Below are positions 1,155 to 62,333 of a DNA stretch of 64,000 nt, piece after piece. The translations under genes were made by a program, and so were the position numbers. Position 1 is the stretch's first letter. Every line of letters begins with the position of its first letter. Under the pieces are notes generated by a model that ran no database searches, was not told the origin of the DNA, and worked only from the letters and a program-made list of their open reading frames with translations. Source of the stretch: Candidatus Tenderia electrophaga (GTDB lineage: Bacteria > Pseudomonadota > Gammaproteobacteria > Tenderiales > Tenderiaceae); NCBI GenBank assembly GCA_001447805.1, contig CP013099.1, positions 1,984,001-2,048,000 of the forward strand, given 5' to 3'.

Positions 1155-1198
1155 CAACAGTCCCCCCCTTTGAAAAAGGGGGGGTAGGGGGGATTTTC
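1155..1198. repeat. Interspersed palindromic repeat, copy 2, inside the SWIM gene
   Basis: ACAGTCCCCCCCTTTGAAAA followed by AGGGGGGGTAGGGGGGATTT. It lies exactly between the two halves of the SWIM zinc-finger gene, right after the stop of the first half. Its right flank (CTGTATAGCCACC) also follows the half copy at 484 (CAGTATAGCCACC), so the mobile or duplicated unit probably reaches to about 1216. Confidence 0.75.
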
Positions 1199-2109: not shown

Positions 2110-2429
2110 GCCCATAAAAGCGAAAGGCCCCGGTGATCACACCGAAGCCATAACGCCGACCGGGAACTCCCAATCCATTTAGCTCTTATAAACCTTTAGA
2201 CGGCCCCCGTGATGTCTAAGTTCCTGATACTTAGCCAACCGATGGATGGGAACATATCAGACACATCGCAGGAATTACCCGTCTTCCCGTATGATCGGCA
2301 TTTTAGGGCTAAAAATCAAGTATCGCTTAACTCGGCCACTTCGGTACAGTCATAGACTGGGCCTGCAGGATTATGAAATAACTTTTGATAATTCAATTGG
2401 TTATCGATATAAAAAAAGGGGTGGGCAGG

Positions 2430-19979: not shown

Positions 19980-20251
19980 GGATAGACTCATTGCTGTCCC
20001 GTTAACATCAGACAAGCCCCCCTCTTTAGCAAAGAGGGGTTGGGGGAGATTTGAAGGCTGACAGAAATATCAGTTATATCAGCAAGCTGAAAAGTTTATA
20101 CATCCCCCTCAATCCCCCTTTTAAAGGGGGAGGTGGTAATGGCGTGTTTTGAAACTCATGTCCAGCTTTCCGAAAAATTCGTAACTTGCTGATCGCTATC
20201 AAGAACACAGTATCTCTTCAGACGTTAACGGGACAGCAGTAGGATAGACTC
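19980..20251. mobile_element. MITE-like element with perfect 15-bp terminal inverted repeats
   Basis: TGCTGTCCCGTTAAC (19992-20006) and its exact complement GTTAACGGGACAGCA (20224-20238) bound about 247 bases with no coding potential. The 10-base direct repeat GGATAGACTC lies just outside both ends (19980-19989 and 20242-20251), like a target-site duplication. Inside are two G/C palindromic repeats in opposite orientation (20015-20052 and 20101-20135). No transposase is encoded, so it would be a non-autonomous element moved by an enzyme elsewhere. Confidence 0.75.
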
Positions 20252-21953: not shown

Positions 21954-22214
21954 CCAGTTTCAACCTGATCAGCCCCCTGATTTTCTTAATCCGTTTCCGT
22001 CTCTAGATGTTTCGATATAGCAGTGGAGCTGGCAATACCGAGGATGAGTGAATCCCGGTATTTGTGTGAATCTTGCAGATAGACGGGTTTTTCCCAGGTA
22101 AAAATCAAATAAGGGATACGGTGTCGGACTCAACCGTTTCTAATATTTCAAAGCAAATTGTTCTCTACCCCCAAACATTGTTACTGTCTTGGTGTACATG
22201 CGGGAGGATACGCT

Positions 22215-23180
22215 GTGAGTGATCTCGTCATATTCGAGGGCGAAGCAACGCGGGTTGAGGTGCGGCTCGAAGGTGAAACCTTATGGCTAACCCAGGTCCA
22301 GATGGGAGAGTTATTTGCCACATCAACAGACAATATCAGTCTCCATCTAAAAAATATATTTAAAGACAAAGAGTTAGAAGAGTCGGCAACTACCGAGGAT
22401 TTCTCGGTAGTTCGCCAGGAAGGCAAAAGACAGGTTAAACGCCAGCTCAAACACTATAACCTCGATGCCATTATATCCGTGGGCTATCGAGTCAATTCTT
22501 CCCGCGCCACCCGCTTCCGCCAATGGGCCACCCGCGTCCTCCGTGAGCACCTGACCCAGGGCTACAGCCTCAATGAACACCGCCTGACCCAACAGGGCTT
22601 GGCGGAGCTGGAGCAGGCGGTCGACTTGCTGGGCAAGACCCTTACCCGTCAGGTGCTGGTGACGGACATCGGCCGGGAAGTGGTCGGCCTGATTCTGGGC
22701 TACGCCAAGACCTGGCGCCTGCTGCTGGATTACGACGAAGGGCGACTCACCGTTCCCGAAGGGGCGCGCCCGGCTCGGGGGGTATTGCATCTGGATGAGG
22801 CACGCCGGGCGTTGGATGCTTTGGCCGACGAGCTGCGCCAGCGTGGTGAGGCCAGTGAGCTGTTCGCCCGTGATAGGGGTGATGGGCTGGCGGCAATTCT
22901 GGGGAATATCGAGCAGACCATGTTTGGTGAGCCGTTGTACAAAACCCGCGAGGAGCGCGCGGCCCACCTTCTCTATTTCGTCATCAAGAACCATCCGTTT
23001 TCTGATGGCAACAAGCGCTCCGGCGCCTTTCTGTTTTTGCTCTATCTACGTCAGGAAGGCATGCGCCTGCCGCTGGATGAAAATGGCCTTACGGCATCGA
23101 CCTTGCTGATCGCCGAGAGTGACCCGAAGGCCAAGGAGTTAATGGTGCGTTTGATCATGAATCTATTGGCGCTTGCTTGA
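22215..23180 (+). CDS. Second RhuM family protein with Fic/Doc-like domain
   Basis: 321 residues, a paralogue of the protein at 7727-8719. The RhuM part (ETLWLTQVQMGELFATSTDN, ISVGYRVNSSRATRF) spans residues 1-115 and the Fic/Doc core HPFSDGNKRSGAF lies near 260-272. GTG 22215 is preferred because GGGAGG stands eight bases upstream; a frame from 22158 adds a leader unlike the family. Unlike the first copy it is not in a restriction operon. Its first ~300 bases are AT-richer than the remainder. The molecular target is unknown. Confidence 0.87.
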   Translation: MSDLVIFEGEATRVEVRLEGETLWLTQVQMGELFATSTDNISLHLKNIFKDKELEESATTEDFSVVRQEGKRQVKRQLKHYNLDAIISVGYRVNSSRATRFRQWATRVLREHLTQGYSLNEHRLTQQGLAELEQAVDLLGKTLTRQVLVTDIGREVVGLILGYAKTWRLLLDYDEGRLTVPEGARPARGVLHLDEARRALDALADELRQRGEASELFARDRGDGLAAILGNIEQTMFGEPLYKTREERAAHLLYFVIKNHPFSDGNKRSGAFLFLLYLRQEGMRLPLDENGLTASTLLIAESDPKAKELMVRLIMNLLALA

Positions 23181-23272: not shown

Positions 23273-23848
23273 TTAATCCATTTCCGCCTCCGCGGATTTG
23301 CTTTTTTCCTGCGCTGTCACCATTGCCGCGAATTTCTCGGCGAAATGCGCAACCCTGTCCCAGTCGGTATATTCATGATCACGTGTGGTGTCCGTGCTGC
23401 CACCTTCGTGTTTGCTGATTCTTTTCATGATATAGCGGGTAATGAAGCCGTATTGTGTGTACTTGACGGCGCCGGCGAATGTTTCGTTCAGCATCGGCTT
23501 CCAGCCGGTCTGGGACAGAAAATTCTGGCCAAATTGCAGGGCTTGCTGCTGCGACTCCGGCCGTTTGCTGTTGATCCCCATGCACACGGTAAAAAAAGCG
23601 CTGGGTGTGGCGTTGAGCCAGTCCCGGTGGCGGGTGACGAACTTGATCATCGGCTTGGGATATTTGTTTATATGGATGGAGCCGCCGACGATGGCGGCGT
23701 CATAATCTTCTACCTGGAAATCTGTGGGTAGATGTTCGCTGGACAAGGTGGTGGTTTGGTGGCCGTTGGTTTGAAGGATATCAGCCATGTGTTCTGATAT
23801 CTTTTTCGTCTGGCCTTCGAGTGAGCCGTAAATGATGAGTATGTCCAT
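23273..23848 (-). CDS. hemG: HemG-like flavodoxin (protoporphyrinogen oxidase family)
   Basis: 191 residues on the reverse strand. ILIIYGSLEGQTKKISEHMA is the flavodoxin FMN-phosphate loop; DYDAAIVGGSIHINKYPKP and FTVCMGINSK are typical of the menaquinone-dependent protoporphyrinogen oxidase HemG, which forms protoporphyrin IX for haem synthesis. It is slightly longer than E. coli HemG, with a charged C-terminal tail. A function as a general flavodoxin-like oxidoreductase is the main alternative. It stands alone, convergent with the RhuM-Fic gene. Confidence 0.75.
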   Translation of the reverse strand: MDILIIYGSLEGQTKKISEHMADILQTNGHQTTTLSSEHLPTDFQVEDYDAAIVGGSIHINKYPKPMIKFVTRHRDWLNATPSAFFTVCMGINSKRPESQQQALQFGQNFLSQTGWKPMLNETFAGAVKYTQYGFITRYIMKRISKHEGGSTDTTRDHEYTDWDRVAHFAEKFAAMVTAQEKSKSAEAEMD

Positions 23849-23962
23849 TATTTATCTCCCCTTGGCGAAATAATATCGTTGGGATAAGCGATAGCTGGCA
23901 ACCCTGGTTTCTGTTTGTTCTTCGTGGGTGCTGTTTTGCGAGGTAATTTTCTTTAATTTTAT

Positions 23963-24375
23963 AAATCCCCCCTAACCCCCCTTTTTCAAAGGGGGGATGG
24001 TGTGGGGTACCCCCTCGCTAGTCATCAACCCCCGTCGTCCCCTTTTAAAAATGGAGATGGTTTGGGAGTATCCTCTCGCTAGTCATCAGCCCCATCATCT
24101 CCCTTTAAAAAATTGGGGGTGGTTCGGGAGCGCCCTCGCTATTTATCATCCTCTGTTGTCCGCTTTTGAAAAGTGGGGATGGTTCGGGAATGCCCTTCGC
24201 TATTCATCAGCCCCGTCGTCCCTCTTTGAAAAGTGAGGATAGTTGGGGGGTACCCCTCGCTACCCATCAGCCTCGTCGTTCCCCTTTGAGAAAATGGGGA
24301 TGGTTCGGGAGTGCGCCTCGCGATTCATCAACCCCATCGTCCCCCCCTTTGAAAAAGGGGGGTTAGGGGGGATTT
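23963..24375. repeat. Tandem array of six ~60-bp hairpin units bounded by inverted full repeats
   Basis: AAATCCCCCCTAACCCCCC (23963-23981) and its exact complement (24357-24375) are the outer ends of palindromic repeat copies in opposite orientation. Between them six degenerate units of 60-63 bases repeat. Each has a GGTTCGGGAGT-like start, a CCTCGCTAxTCATCAxCCCC core (first positions near 24012, 24075, 24135, 24196, 24256 and 24317), and a CCCCTTTGAAAAxGGGGAT hairpin. The array fills the gap between hemG and the thioredoxin-fold gene. Frames through it reflect the repeats and are not genes. Confidence 0.8.
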
Positions 24376-24532
24376 AACAACCATCGACATCAACCCGCCC
24401 GCGAAATCTTGTTCCCAACGTTCAGCATTCCCGCCCGATCACCCGCGCAATCCCGCGCAGCTCCGCCATAAAAAGGGGCAATGATACGCCTCCATAAATC
24501 GCAGGAATAGAAGCGTTGGTCGCTATGACGGA

Positions 24533-25177
24533 CTAGGGATAATGTTTCGCGATCTCCGCTTCCACTAGTTGCGTGAGCTGTTGCAGGCCGAAGCTGGGTA
24601 GGGCCCGGCCGTTCACAAAGAAGGTCGGGGTCTTGTCAGCGCCCAGCTGCCGGGCGTCACTGAGGTCCTGCTGGATGATGTGGACAATCTCAGGTGCTTT
24701 CATGTCTTGCGCCAGGCGATCCAGGTCGAGCTCGAGGGCGTCCAGAAATGGCCAGAAGCGATCAGGATAGGCGATGTGGTTCTGAGTCCACTGGCTTTGG
24801 GTGTCAAACATCAAATCCAGCACCTGGCCGAATTTATTTTGCTTGCGCGCGGCTTCCAGGATGGCGACCATGCCGTCGGAGCCTTGATGAAACGGGGCAT
24901 AACGCAGCACGACGCGGATCTGATCCGGATATCGCTGCAGCATGCGCTTTACATAGGGGTGGAACTGGCGGCAGGTGCCGCAGGCGGGGTCCATGAATTC
25001 AACGATGGTCACCTTGGCCTGTTCCGGCCCGACGCGCGGGGAGTGCTCGCGGATCAGTTGTGCGCCGCCTTGGGATACGGTTGCGTCTTGTTGGGATTGC
25101 GGCTTGAGGAGAACCGCGGCCAGCAGGGCGCCGGCGATCAATACTAGGGCGATAAGGGTAATGTGACTTTGTTTCAT
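24533..25177 (-). CDS. DsbA/DsbG-family thioredoxin-fold protein, membrane-anchored
   Basis: 214 residues. An N-terminal membrane or signal segment (HITLIALVLIAGALLAAVLL) is followed by a DsbA-like thioredoxin domain with a CxxC centre in DPACGTCRQFHP and the cis-Pro loop KTPTFFVNG. It probably acts in the periplasm as a thiol oxidoreductase. The central dipeptide GT differs from the PH of DsbA. ATG 25177 follows CAGGTAGTC; a longer frame from 25207 has no better site. Its partner membrane enzyme is not visible here. Confidence 0.85.
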   Translation of the reverse strand: MKQSHITLIALVLIAGALLAAVLLKPQSQQDATVSQGGAQLIREHSPRVGPEQAKVTIVEFMDPACGTCRQFHPYVKRMLQRYPDQIRVVLRYAPFHQGSDGMVAILEAARKQNKFGQVLDLMFDTQSQWTQNHIAYPDRFWPFLDALELDLDRLAQDMKAPEIVHIIQQDLSDARQLGADKTPTFFVNGRALPSFGLQQLTQLVEAEIAKHYP

Positions 25178-25624
25178 GACTACCTGGTAAGTTGGGTTAA
25201 AAGACAATAGTGCGTTTTATCATATTTTGAAGCCCTCGGCCTGGTCTTCCGGCTGGAGTTGGGTGACCTAAACATCTGCACCGGGCAGTCACGGCCGGTC
25301 AGCAGCAGGGTGGCGGCGGGGGCGTGGTGCGGTATTGACACTATAAACGATGCGTTGCTGCCCGGCTGGAAGCTTAAAGATCGAGATAAAAAGTATCTGT
25401 CATTGACGTTGCGACATTCTCTGCGCTTTTCGACCTGGCACTCATTCAAGAATGATAAGATTTCCGATATAAAAATGGTGGATCTTGTAATGCAGTGGCT
25501 CAATAAATGCGGTTAGATCGCGGCTGCCGACATGACAATCCCCATTCTCCAGGGGGGAGGCATGGTTCTCCGAACCCATGTATTCACAGCATATACCGCA
25601 GTTTAACGCGAATGAGGAGCGGCG
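25178..25624. other. Intergenic stretch, no gene recognised
   Basis: About 450 bases between divergently read genes. An open frame at 25259-25516 has no recognisable features and no good ribosome site. The stretch should contain promoters for both flanking genes; AATGAGGAGCGG at 25611-25622 serves the plus-strand gene at 25625. Confidence 0.5.
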
Positions 25625-51414: not shown

Positions 51415-51602
51415 CGCACTACAAGAGATTGGGCGTGTCCGGGCTATTTTCATCAAAACAACGCCTTAGGTCGAATTATTGGAGTTCCTCCTATGCTCCA
51501 AGGGATTTTTGCCAAACCGACCGATTGAGCAATTTCAATGCCGATAGCTCACGACTTTCCTAAACTCCGGGTTCGATTCACTAGGAGAAGGAGGAACAGC
51601 CG

Positions 51603-52643
51603 ATGACTAACAAAATCCAGCAATTGGTTGAGACTGCACACGCCTTGGTGGCGCCCGGCAAAGGGATCTTGGCAATGGACGAAAGTAACCCCACCTGTGG
51701 CAAGCGCCTCGCCTCTGTGGATGTGGAGAACTCCGAAGACAATCGCCGTGCCTACCGCGAGCTATTGCTCACCGCGCCGGGCCTTGGCGACTATATCAGC
51801 GGCGCGATTCTGTACGACGAGACCCTGCGCCAATCGGCATCGGATGGCACTGCTTTTCCAGAATTGGCACGTGAGCGCGGCATCATTCCCGGCATCAAGG
51901 TGGATACCGGCGCCAAGGACCTGGCCGGCCACCCCGGTGAAAAAGTCACCGAAGGTCTGGACGGCCTGCGCGAGCGGCTGGCTGAGTACAGTGATCTGGG
52001 CGCCCGTTTCGCCAAGTGGCGCGCGGTGATCACCATCGGCGACGGTATACCGAGCCGTGCCTGCTTGGAGGCCAATGCCCACGCCCTGGCGCGCTATGCT
52101 GCCTTGTGCCAGGAAGCCGGTTTAGTCCCGATAGTTGAACCGGAGGTCTTGTTGGACGGTGATCACAGCATAGAGCGCTGCTTCGAGATTACGCGTGAAA
52201 CACAGAACCGTGTGTTTTCTCAGTTGTATCGCCAGGGCGTGGAACTGCCCGGTATTGTCCTCAAACCCAGCATGGTGCTGCCGGGTAAGGACCATTCCAA
52301 GCAGACGACACCCGAACGGGTGGCCGAAGAGACCCTGCGCTGCCTGCGCAATACCGTACCGGCGGCGGTGCCGGGGGTGGCCTTTTTGTCCGGTGGACAA
52401 AGCGACCTCGAGGCCACCGAGCACCTGAATTTGATGAACAAGCAGGCCAAGAAGATGCAGCTGCCGTGGCGGGTGACATTCTCTTATGCGCGCGCCCTGC
52501 AGCATGTCGCCCTTACCACCTGGCGTGGCGATAAGGCCAAGCTTGACGACGCCCAGCAGGCCTTGTTGCATCGGGCCAAGTGCAATAGTGCGGCCAGCCG
52601 GGGTGAATACAACGATCGTTTGGAGCACGAACTGGCGGCATAG
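51603..52643 (+). CDS. Class I fructose-bisphosphate aldolase, animal/plant type
   Basis: 346 residues. KGILAMDESNPTCGKRLASV, DYISGAILYDETL, RAVITIGDGIPS, IVEPEVLLDGDHSIERC, VLKPSMVLPGK (Schiff-base Lys 221) and GVAFLSGGQS are classic eukaryote-like class I aldolase sequences. Bacterial members occur in proteobacteria and cyanobacteria. It cleaves fructose-1,6-bisphosphate; with the FbaB-type enzyme the host has two independent class I aldolases here. GGAGAAGGAGGAAC before ATG 51603 is a strong ribosome site. Confidence 0.94.
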   Translation: MTNKIQQLVETAHALVAPGKGILAMDESNPTCGKRLASVDVENSEDNRRAYRELLLTAPGLGDYISGAILYDETLRQSASDGTAFPELARERGIIPGIKVDTGAKDLAGHPGEKVTEGLDGLRERLAEYSDLGARFAKWRAVITIGDGIPSRACLEANAHALARYAALCQEAGLVPIVEPEVLLDGDHSIERCFEITRETQNRVFSQLYRQGVELPGIVLKPSMVLPGKDHSKQTTPERVAEETLRCLRNTVPAAVPGVAFLSGGQSDLEATEHLNLMNKQAKKMQLPWRVTFSYARALQHVALTTWRGDKAKLDDAQQALLHRAKCNSAASRGEYNDRLEHELAA

Positions 52644-53680: not shown

Positions 53681-56600
53681 TCAGTAACTCACCGTTACGC
53701 CCGTGGCATAACCGCTGTTTCTGAGCGTGTCGGCGTCGATGCGGCGGCTGTTGCCGGCGGCGTCATAAAGCTCAACGCCAGAGACTGTCCAACGGCCTTC
53801 CTGGGTCAGATCGCTGAGCACGGCAGTATCGAGCTGGGCGCTGGTAGACAGCGGCGTGGTATCGAAGAAGTAGCCCCAGGCGGCTAGATATTGGCCGTTG
53901 GGTCCCTGCAGGTCGACGCGGATCTTTTCTATACCGGCTACGTCGTCCAGGGCCGAGACCATGAAGCTCATGCGGGCGTTGCCGCCGGCCGGGAAAATTT
54001 CCGGCGTCAGGATAGTGAAGCCCTGTAAGGTCGGCGCCACGCCATCGCCGCCGGTGTTGGTCACGCTGACGGTGGTGTCATAGCCCAAGCCGGCCAGCTG
54101 ATCGGCATACTGAGAACTGTTGCCGGCCGCATCGGTAAGCAGCAGGCTGGTAATGGTCCAGGTCCCTTGCTCGGCGAAGCTGCTCAGGGTGGCGCTATCG
54201 ATCTGAGTCGACAGACTGGTTGGCGTGGTGTCGGCAAAGGTACCTACCGCTTCCACGATGACACCGCCTGGACTGGCCAGCGTGAGGCTGATCGAATTCA
54301 GTCCGGCGATGTCATCCGAGGCATCCACCTGGAAGCTGAGTACGGCATCACCCGTCAGTGCATTCACCGTCGGCGTCAGCACGCTAAAGTCATCCAGGCT
54401 GGGCCCCGCACTATCGCTGTTAAGGTTGCGCAGATCCACTTCGGTGGGGAAACCGGCCTCGGTCAGTGCATCGCTGTCGAGGCTGCGTTTATTACCTGCC
54501 TCGTCATAGAGGGTGATACCACTGATCTGCCAGATGCCCTGCTCGGCGAAGGCGCTGAAGCTATCGCTATCCAGCTTGACGCCGCGCACCAGCGGATAAT
54601 CGTCGAAGCTCACCGAGGTGGTGGCGAAGGCGCCTGAGGGACTGAGTAGGTCGATGCGCGCGCGTCGCACACCGGAGGCGTTGTCGATCAAGGTCATGTT
54701 GAAGCTGGCCACGCCATCACCGTTGGAGATGTCTACCACCGGCGTCGCGATATCGAAGGCCAATAGGCGCGGTTTAATGCCGTCTGAGCCGGAATCGAAA
54801 CATGGCGGCAGATGGCCCAGCGTCGAGCCGGTGGGTTTGGAAGCGTTGCTCGCAGGATCGGAGCCGAGCCAGATTTCCACATAATCCGGGAAGCCGTCGT
54901 TGTCGTCGTCATCGATGAAGGAAATACCCAGATCAGTGGCATTCATACCTTCCGGCGTCGATCCGGCATCATTAAAGTCAGTATTGAAGGCGACTTCCAC
55001 CACATTGGCATAGCCGTCACCATCGTCATCGACACCCGCTACGGTATCACCGAAGCGACACACTTGGTCCTCGTGCAGGATGCTCACGTCGATCATTGCT
55101 ACGTTGGAATCGTAACCGCCGTCCGACACATAGAAGCTGAAACTGTCGTCGCCAAGCTGGTCTGCGTATGGCGTATAGACATAGGCGCCGCTATCTTGAT
55201 CCAGCGTCACACTACCGTGAACGGCATTGGTCACCAAGTGATACGTGAGCCCATCATTTTCCGGATCAACGCCCTGCAGCACGCCGCCGTAGGCCAGGTT
55301 GCGGAATACGATGATATTTCCGTCATAGGCCACCGGATTGCCGTTGGCTTCGGCAATTGTGATGTTCACCGTGGCGATATTGGATTGGTTAAAGCCGTCA
55401 TCCACCTTAAAGCTGAAGCTGTCGCTGCCCACAGTATGGGCCGGAGGCGTGTAGGTAAACTCGCCGCTGACGCTGTCGATGTCCACAGTATGGGCCGGAG
55501 GCGTGTAGGTAAACTCGCCGCTGACGCTGTCGATGTCCACGCTGCCCTGGCTGGGGCTGCTGACCAGGCTGTAGCTGAGGCTGTCACCGTCGGGATCGTC
55601 GGCGGATAAGTTGGCGACCAGCGGGATGTTCTTCTGCGTGGTGAGATCGGCGTCATGCGCAACCGGGTCCACGTTATCTACGACTTCGACGGTGGCGGTG
55701 AATCCGGCACCGACCAAGTCTTCCAACACCATCACCGCTGCCTCGTTGGGTTCTTGCGCGGACAGGTTGCGGAAGGTCCAGGTGCCGGCCTCAAGGTCGG
55801 TGGTGCCGGTATTGATCAACTCCGACAGGGAGATCGGATCGCTGCTGCCGACACTCAGGGAACGCAGGTAGGGGATGATCTGGCCGGACGGACCGATAAG
55901 ATCGACACGCACTTTGTAGAGCGTAGCCGCGGCCTTATTAAAGGTGACGGCGGCGCCGATGTTGACGTAGGTTTCTTTGTTGGAGACCACGGGTGTCGTG
56001 ACGTCGAAATCCACCACCCAGATATCCGGTTTGATGGCCACCGATACGGTAAACGGACCGACACTGACCGTGCCGTCGCTGACCATAAAGGTAAAGCTGT
56101 CATCGCCCAGGGCGAAGGCATTGGGCGTATAGGTGAAGGCGCCGCTATTGGCATTGGTCAGGCTGGCGCTGCCGAGGTTGCCGTTATCGGCAATGCTGAA
56201 GGTCAGTGTGTCACCATCCTTGTCCTGTGCTTGAATCACCCCCGAATAGACGCTGTCAGCGGTCACTTCGATGGCAAAATCTTCAGCAGTCGGTGCATCA
56301 TTGACGGCGTTTACCGCAATGGCAACCGTAGCGATATTAGACTCGTCATAGCCGTCGTCGACTCTGAAACTGAAGATATCGGCGCCGAAATAATCCGCCG
56401 CGGGGCTGTAGCTGAAACTGCCGCTGGCGGCATCGATACTCACCGATCCGTGGCTGGGTTCTGTCACCAGATGATAGGTCAAGGCGTGACCGTCGGCGTC
56501 ATAGCCGCGCAGCTGGCCGTCGTAGGTCGTGTCTTCATCCAGGATGATAAAGTTGCCATAGGCCACCGGTCGGGTGTTTATGGCGCTACCCAAGTAAATC

Positions 56601-62021: not shown

Positions 62022-62099
62022 GTTCTCGGCCCTGTTGTGGAAAAAAGGCCCGAACAAAGACGTGCTGCAAGTCAATTATGGAGGGATTGTCTTGTATTC

Positions 62100-62182
62100 C
62101 GGCAATCCCGCTGCCTTAGGGCTGCGCCCCTTAGGCCGGTGACTTTGCGCCCCCGACCTTTCGTTCGGGGTAGCCTTTTTCG
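62100..62182 (-). promoter_or_regulatory. GEMM-I type cyclic-dinucleotide riboswitch aptamer
   Basis: Read on the reverse strand the order of elements is that of the cyclic di-GMP-I riboswitch. P1 5' side is GGCTACC. Stem P2 CCCCGA/TCGGGG carries a CGAAAG tetraloop. The conserved GGCGCAAAGTCACCGGCCTA core with tetraloop receptor follows, then a P3 arm GGGGCGCAGCCC, GGCAGCGGG, and the P1 3' side ATTGCC. It lies 80 bases upstream of the lipoprotein-adhesin operon. A T6 run after GGGCC (62041-62046) may belong to the expression platform. Whether it prefers c-di-GMP or the cGAMP variant cannot be decided by eye. Confidence 0.85.
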
Positions 62183-62333
62183 GATGTCTTACTAGTGATG
62201 TTATCGACAATATAAGAGCATAATTAAATACTGAGAGTGTGCGCCAGTTCACGAAACCGCAATGGGATGATGCGCCCTCCGCGCCCCGAAACTCAACATT
62301 TCTTTAATTATATCAGATGGTTACGCGATATCA
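62183..62333. other. Promoter region of the adhesin operon and end of slipin gene
   Basis: AT-rich non-coding stretch (TATAAGAGCATAATTAAATA and onward). The riboswitch transcript must start here, reading leftwards. No gene supported. Confidence 0.5.

Follow-up and report, generated by a model that had tools for sequence, protein, structure and literature searches.

An intergenic repeat array of Candidatus Tenderia electrophaga, best read as an amplified triplex-motif pair

At positions 23962-24376 of the window lies a 415-nt intergenic array for which the best reading is a pair of triplex-motif ends that has been amplified, a kind of element that is already known. By the window we mean the whole 64,000-nt stretch of DNA analysed here, which spans positions 1984001-2048000 on the larger of the two contigs of the 3.76-Mb genome. 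In our judgement the segment is probably an inverted pair of such ends that was amplified internally and grew by slippage or unequal exchange between the cores of the ends. The observed basis for this reading is the geometry of the ends, the co-variation of their tags and stems, the differing spacers, the untagged inner cores, the conservation of the ends, and changes in the number of palindromes. The array looks like a site of past unstable DNA copying rather than a gene.

Tandem Repeats Finder reported periods of 60 (5.8 copies, score 342) and 121 (scores 366 and 351), and anchors are spaced by 61, 60, 61, 60, and 61 nt across six units. A tandem array of approximately 60-bp units claimed for this place in an earlier note is therefore present, with six units of 60/61 nt. 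The note had the termini as perfect inverted repeats of 19 bp; they are indeed perfect, but the repeat is 35 bp long (23962-23996 and 24342-24376), with no further extension outward. It also had each of the six degenerate units carrying a hairpin. The units hold, but there are five internal hairpins, which are worn and lack the outer tag found at the ends. The array lies between two minus-strand genes, after the stop codon of a DsbA/thioredoxin-like gene and before the start of a flavodoxin gene. The features are as follows:

1162-1195, plus strand: single end (triplex-motif scan and end-palindrome searches)
20019-20051, plus strand: single end, CCCCTC/GAGGGG variant (triplex-motif scan and end-palindrome searches)
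23273-23848, minus strand: flavodoxin-domain protein (Pfam Flavodoxin_5, E 1.8e-33), start codon about 114 nt from the array
23962-23996, minus strand: left end, class II triplex-motif palindrome (35-bp inverted repeat with the right end; triplex-motif scan), with the 9-3-9-3-9 geometry at 23964-23996 on the minus strand, outer tag at 23962-23975, and hairpin at 23976-23996
23997-24341, unstranded: amplified interior of six spacer copies and five degenerate hairpins, period 60/61
24014-24074, plus strand: complete unit 1 (anchors), hairpin near 24038-24056, limits by eye
24075-24134, plus strand: complete unit 2 (anchors, repeat family D2), hairpin near 24098-24120
24135-24195, plus strand: complete unit 3 (anchors, repeat family D2), hairpin near 24159-24180
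24196-24255, plus strand: complete unit 4 (anchors), hairpin near 24219-24240, limits by eye
24256-24316, plus strand: complete unit 5 (anchors, repeat family D2), hairpin near 24279-24301
24342-24376, plus strand: right end, CCCCCCTTT-GAA-AAAGGGGGG-TTA-GGGGGGATT (inverted repeat; triplex-motif scan)
24533-25207, minus strand: DsbA/thioredoxin-like protein (Pfam Thioredoxin_4, E 1.1e-20; DSBA, E 6.1e-11), stop codon about 158 nt from the array

Pairwise identity among the five complete units is 73-79%, and neighbouring units are no closer in sequence than distant ones. These equal distances suggest one old burst rather than live turnover. The two ends are identical at 35 of 35 positions, as against units that are about 77% alike (about 23% different), and the probability of seeing no end differences at the rate of the units is, as a rough figure, about 1e-4. 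In the five inner hairpins the C-run, TTT..AAA, and G-run of the core persist in a worn state, and the outer tag AAATCCCCCCTAA is missing; since these hairpins are both degenerate and untagged, they represent cores of the end element and not copies of the whole element. As a single strand the array folds with z-scores of -6.9 (minus) and -8.5 (plus), with none of 100 shuffles equally stable, although in the predicted structures much of this stability comes from the 35-bp terminal repeat. No Rfam family matches the array at gathering thresholds.

On its G-rich strand every end has the form CCCCCCTTT-NNN-AAAGGGGGG-TTA-GGGGGGATT, a geometry of 9-3-9-3-9. We gathered 99 ends from the fetched stretches of the genome and the window with a fuzzy pattern of the known end types, a procedure that favours intact motifs. 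Loop 1 is 3 nt long in 82 of these ends, and TTA is the commonest second loop (22/99). Counting the purine-motif triads G.GC, A.AT, and T.AT, all 9 positions form triads in 81 ends, 8 of 9 in 16, and 7 of 9 in 2. The mean is 8.80 triads, compared with 8.10 when third strands are swapped between ends (maximum of 200 swaps, 8.21). Three main end types occur, given here as tag/stem arm: CCCCCC/CCCCCC, CCCCCT/TCCCCC, and CTCCCC/CCCCTC. The outer tag mirrors the stem arm of its own end in 38 of 47 informative ends of this genome and in 51 of 73 elsewhere, while it is a direct copy of the arm in one end of this genome and in none elsewhere. Because the tag is a mirror of the arm and not its complement, it matches what a third strand needs to be, and reading the triplex on the G-rich strand also explains the outer AAAT. 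A scan of the window found four triplex motifs, two of them the array ends, versus none in each of 5 mononucleotide shuffles. Class II potential intrastrand triplex motifs (PIT/TM) are described in passages of PMC4666352 as a pyrimidine stem, a purine stem, and a 3' third strand of 6-15 nt, with at most one mismatch and loops of 1-6 nt, one passage asking for stems of more than 7 nt. With at least 8 of 9 triads in 97 of the 99 ends, we classify the ends as class II PIT/TM, of the BoxC type of E. coli, the triplex itself being predicted on paper.

The termini of the array had been described as made by an interspersed palindrome, and matches in both the window and the genome bear out its dispersal. 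Allowing up to 3 mismatches, the end palindrome has 9 matches at 5 places in the window, versus 0.04 expected in shuffles. The genome contains 118 matches to parts of the array (both strands counted, many overlapping), and a degenerate end pattern matches 49 times forward and 47 times in reverse, some of these overlapping at one site, while a control, the same pattern read backwards, has no genome matches. Neighbours within 500 nt of each other are mostly inverted (47/54): 30 pairs point inward with their tags outside, 17 outward, and 7 in the same direction, one of the 30 inward pairs being two readings of a single palindrome. Inward pairs contain 58 of the 99 ends, and 21 of the 30 have spacers of 36-57 nt. 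Comparing 26 spacers in both orientations (n=650; 4 inward pairs with overlapping ends or a spacer above 130 nt were left out), we found 15 comparisons clearly above shuffles, and all 15 come from two local clusters of repeated elements. When 598 distant comparisons were tested in a second round, none stood out clearly by its score. The sites at 2155739-2155862 (L026) and 2317989-2318110 (L024), about 160 kb apart, share their end types and have 57-nt spacers that are alike at 38 of 57 positions without gaps. These two spacers are probably related, and their likeness hints that a whole pair may have been copied to a new place, for which slippage gives no explanation; this concerns the spread of pairs and not the step that makes arrays.

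Of 45 sites, a crude codon-usage gene caller puts 41 in intergenic sequence, and 4 overlap a called ORF. The same crude calls place 33 of the intergenic sites between codirectional genes, 7 between convergent genes, and 1 between divergent genes, so that 40 of 41 adjoin at least one gene end. Divergent gaps make up 7 of 25 intergenic gaps in the window, a small background against which the element seems to avoid them. Arrays of like design, each with its own spacers, are found elsewhere in the genome at 2631296-2631771 and 2933962-2934385, with an irregular one at 51472-51653. In a second kind of array, whole elements are repeated together with outer flank (L010, with a 135-nt repeat, L009, and L037). 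The L010 example, at about 1278-2040 of that locus, is a tandem run of whole elements with a period of about 135 nt and 11 ends, and it is probably recent because its copies are nearly identical.

The family extends well outside this genome. The 34-nt form of the end, exact except for the loop and one position, was found in at least 117 stretches, and the matches listed include Gamma-, Beta-, and Deltaproteobacteria, Nitrospirae, Acidobacteria, and one Elusimicrobia bin. Many of these records are metagenome bins, and single odd phyla could be binning errors. The whole array used as a query matched 4 of 55 other genomes, all relatives, through the end palindromes only. In 162 stretches from other genomes, 56 neighbour pairs point inward (9 of these overlapping readings of one palindrome), 51 outward, and 9 in the same direction; neighbours outside the own genome are thus again inverted, while the inward excess is absent. 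Like arrays occur in L033, from a relative in the genus in which the right end lies beyond the contig, and in L176, with a less regular one in L083. At E 1e-5, a threshold that a query of this length reaches only with a near-exact copy, the end had no matches in 72,556 plasmid records or in 20,395 E. coli genome records. Two of 50,697 phage records matched, both of one phage, Haemophilus phage SuMu (JF832915.1; L238:2501-2535), in which a single end lies in-frame in the portal gene and encodes KSPLAPLFQRGE. The closest relative of SuMu in the phage collection, a Mannheimia phage, lacks the end and has a protein 10 residues shorter; the portal site has diverged, so the junctions of any insertion are unreadable.

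Within Lysobacter the family is patchy. There are at least 28-69 matches per genome in 14 of 20 genomes, at least 16 in one, and at least 4-9 in five (G080, G081, G088, G090, and G092), all of these numbers being floors with 16 candidates scored per genome. The candidate numbers of a first look were equally high in the element-poor genomes; they are not copy numbers and were not used. Lysobacter ends are extended outward as GCAAATCC...GGATTTGC (L089, L090, L102, L131, L135, and L191), so the element differs by lineage.

Two Lysobacter sites allow ends and spacers to be compared across genomes. At site 1, all 20 genomes match part of the query, and 11 sites were read (the query and 10 others, with 9 of the 19 other genomes left out): 6 have intact pairs, 2 have decayed ends (G078 and G083), 1 has a remnant (G076), and 2 are without the palindrome (G090 and G081). 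These last five, as decayed, remnant, or empty sites, do not enter the end identities. In the six intact elements the ends are 93-100% identical in all 15 pairwise comparisons. Spacer identity is 0.92 and 0.83 for the two nearest pairs but only 0.22-0.58 for the remaining 13; 4 of these rise barely above the best of 100 shuffles, and 9 do not rise above it. The choice of intact pairs favours the ends, and this contrast is therefore partly selected. The flanks have also diverged, and in the closest pair (G061/G084) ends at 0.93 and spacer at 0.92 show no contrast. Comparing G076 with G077 reveals a deletion that ends in G-runs and leaves only a remnant of the right end. At site 2, 5 of 14 genomes have the pair, one of them decayed (G078), and nine are without it, among them G076 with one weak core of another type. 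The four intact elements there have ends 90-94% identical and spacer identities of 0.79, 0.69, and then 0.34-0.36, the level of shuffled sequence. Equal drift of ends and spacers was considered as an explanation and is rejected beyond the nearest pairs, where spacers are lost and intact ends remain alike.

A Lysobacter array with a period of about 228 nt, in which tagged and untagged palindromes alternate in a register unlike that of the window array, contains 10, 4, 2, 1, and 0 palindromes in five genomes. Its flanks match at 90-95%, only the left flank being found in the genomes with 1 and 0. The suggestion in the earlier note that the array might be a recombination hotspot finds support in these copy numbers and in site 1, which is filled, decayed, partly deleted, or empty in different species. 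The window array itself supplies none; the support comes from relatives and from the link of triplex motifs to variable loci in the passages of PMC4666352 used here.

How could such an array arise from a pair? Each end would fold as a hairpin with two arms of 9 nt, joined by a 3-nt loop to a G-rich third strand of 9 nt. The hairpin core is palindromic, which makes the left and right cores repeats of each other in direct and in inverted orientation alike. A replication fork or a single strand might stall at the folded G-rich structure, and slippage or unequal exchange between the cores would then duplicate a unit of spacer plus core. Inner copies, which would have no third strand, would be left to drift, and the complete ends may be kept alike by selection on the fold or by template-switch repair between the inverted arms. 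No dedicated transposase would be required for this step. Duplication between left and right cores predicts untagged inner palindromes placed between the end of one spacer and the start of the next, and that is the arrangement seen in the arrays with a single spacer family (the window, 2631296-2631771, 2933962-2934385, L033, and L176). We infer that the triplex forms in the cell, that slippage is the cause of growth, and that the ends are maintained for one of these reasons. For TM_ECO, the E. coli motif, passages of PMC4666352 report a triplex in the isolated strand, and in vivo DMS footprinting without protection. A wider proposal, which we offer tentatively, is that the family is a cross-phylum repeat without a transposase in which the maintained unit is the triplex-capable end pair, held constant at fixed sites by selection or templated repair, with an interior free to drift and multiply. 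If this were true, end pairs located after gene ends would act as a lasting source of local variation in copy number.

Other explanations account for part of these observations. Selfish or neutral palindromes, moving as ends or pairs by some unknown route and leaving arrays as by-products without a role, would explain a distribution that crosses phyla, element-free sites in Lysobacter, the single end in the SuMu portal gene that is missing from the closest relative in the phage collection, and the 57-nt spacer partly common to two distant sites; pairs may also come from local inverted copying, and slippage as the step that makes arrays is compatible with this account. We nevertheless find it doubtful, since neither a clear target-site duplication nor an enzyme linked to the repeat was found, and beyond the nearest relatives intact ends are alike while spacers are not, which is unlike a plain neutral relic. 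A mobile origin with a known enzyme is offered by REPINs or BIMEs, inverted REP pairs mobilised by RAYT with secondary tandem growth. Inverted doublets, clusters, and tandem arrays, located between codirectional or convergent genes, with variable spacers in some REP dimers, are described in passages of Bertels and Rainey 2011 (PMC3116915) and Di Nocera et al. 2013 (PMC3733652). The elements here resemble them in their inverted doublets (47 of 54 neighbour pairs, with 30 pointing inward), their tandem clusters, and their location mostly after gene ends, and part of a spacer is shared between the sites at 2155739 and 2317989. The ends, however, start with AAATC and have a third-strand mirror tag in place of the GTAG/CGTC tag of the REPINs in those passages. 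Searches for Y1_Tnp covered the own genome, with 4 hits, 20 genomes reached through loci, and the 20 Lysobacter genomes. Among 60 Y1_Tnp loci, which are part of the matches and pool RAYT and IS200 types, no RAYT gene was flanked by the repeats, and a palindrome with at most one substitution lay in the flanks (up to about 1.5 kb) of only one, about 935 nt away. Lysobacter G084 has at least 52 matches to the end without a Y1_Tnp match, while the five element-poor genomes have 2-4 Y1_Tnp matches each. Membership among RAYT-linked REPINs is not supported, and we regard this origin as unlikely.

The position of the array, about 158 nt past one minus-strand stop and 114 nt ahead of the next start, could also suit a cis-acting RNA array in the flavodoxin leader, serving as attenuator, mRNA stabiliser, or source of processed small RNAs, and both the strong predicted folds and the crude gene calls that put 40 of 41 intergenic sites beside a gene end agree with this. 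Yet there is no terminator-like site within the array, the one promoter-like site nearby is at chance level, and the internal hairpins have decayed. In E. coli, PIT motifs had no promoter or terminator activity in an earlier study as reported in a passage of PMC4666352. A search of 11 family genomes, moreover, recovered the flavodoxin gene from its own genome and from none of the other 10, most of which are incomplete. We regard a role of this sort as improbable. Regular spacing of the palindromes is the one feature in common with an integron- or CRISPR-like array growing by capture of cassettes or spacers, an idea that we regard as very unlikely here: the units are 73-79% identical copies of one sequence and not different inserts. 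The integron-like growth of the earlier note is not supported for this reason, and the conserved repeats with different spacers of a CRISPR are likewise not seen, because the spacers of the array copy one another.

Amplification of a triplex-motif pair, the reading we prefer, places the family beside TM_ECO (BoxC; Holder et al. 2015, PMC4666352). In the passages of that paper drawn on here, TM_ECO shares with our ends the class II purine motif, 9-nt stems, and a 3-nt second loop, and TTA, the commonest second loop here, is one of the two TM_ECO types. It is likewise intergenic, sometimes in close inverted pairs, and at variable loci; the intergenic location reported in E. coli compares with 41 of 45 sites here, the phage copy being intragenic. 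The sequence is different, however. The TM_ECO pattern, CCCTCNCCC N3-6 GGGNGAGGG N3 GGGNGAGGG, had no matches without mismatches in the whole genome and none in the 178,832 nt of fetched stretches plus window. The family also differs in its inward pairs, which include 58 of the 99 ends and have their own spacers, and in the growth of some pairs into arrays, of which the same passages of PMC4666352 describe no example. H-DNA mirror repeats, as that source outlines them, have the mirror symmetry of homopurine/homopyrimidine runs in common with the ends, but the motif here adds a Watson-Crick hairpin, so that one strand alone could form the triplex.

According to the passages of PMC4666352 cited, bacterial triplex motifs had been described by 2000 without agreement on their role, and they have been linked to variable or unstable loci with the mechanism left open; in the part of the REP literature represented by passages of PMC12306157, triplexes are not mentioned. 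Searches of openly licensed papers for the sequence or the in-frame peptide returned nothing relevant, and the sequence family, the pair with a drifting spacer, and growth into arrays were not found in that literature. The family suggests a testable mechanism of instability, in which inverted pairs have palindromic cores that double as direct repeats. Arrays of different ages would, in the proposed account, be a record of core-mediated duplication. The family also offers a natural test of the importance of the third strand, which is retained in the ends and lost from the inner copies, the two having decayed differently within one array.

As to the surroundings of the array, the DsbA/thioredoxin-like neighbour has two clear relatives, and the palindrome is absent from the stretches read around them. 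On the other side, at 22158-23180 on the plus strand, RhuM and Fic domains are joined in one protein near the array. Elsewhere in the window are a c-di-GMP-I riboswitch at 62098-62185 (minus strand, 69.1 bits), a match to the DUF3800-V RNA family at 2197-2285 (minus strand, 43.4 bits), and a tandem repeat at 55412-55540 with a unit of 54 nt, a multiple of three, in 2.4 copies with 96% matches. In L032, near position 1292, repeats of the form AAAAGGGGTCAACGAAT lie beside one Y1_Tnp gene and are possibly the real partner repeat of that gene.
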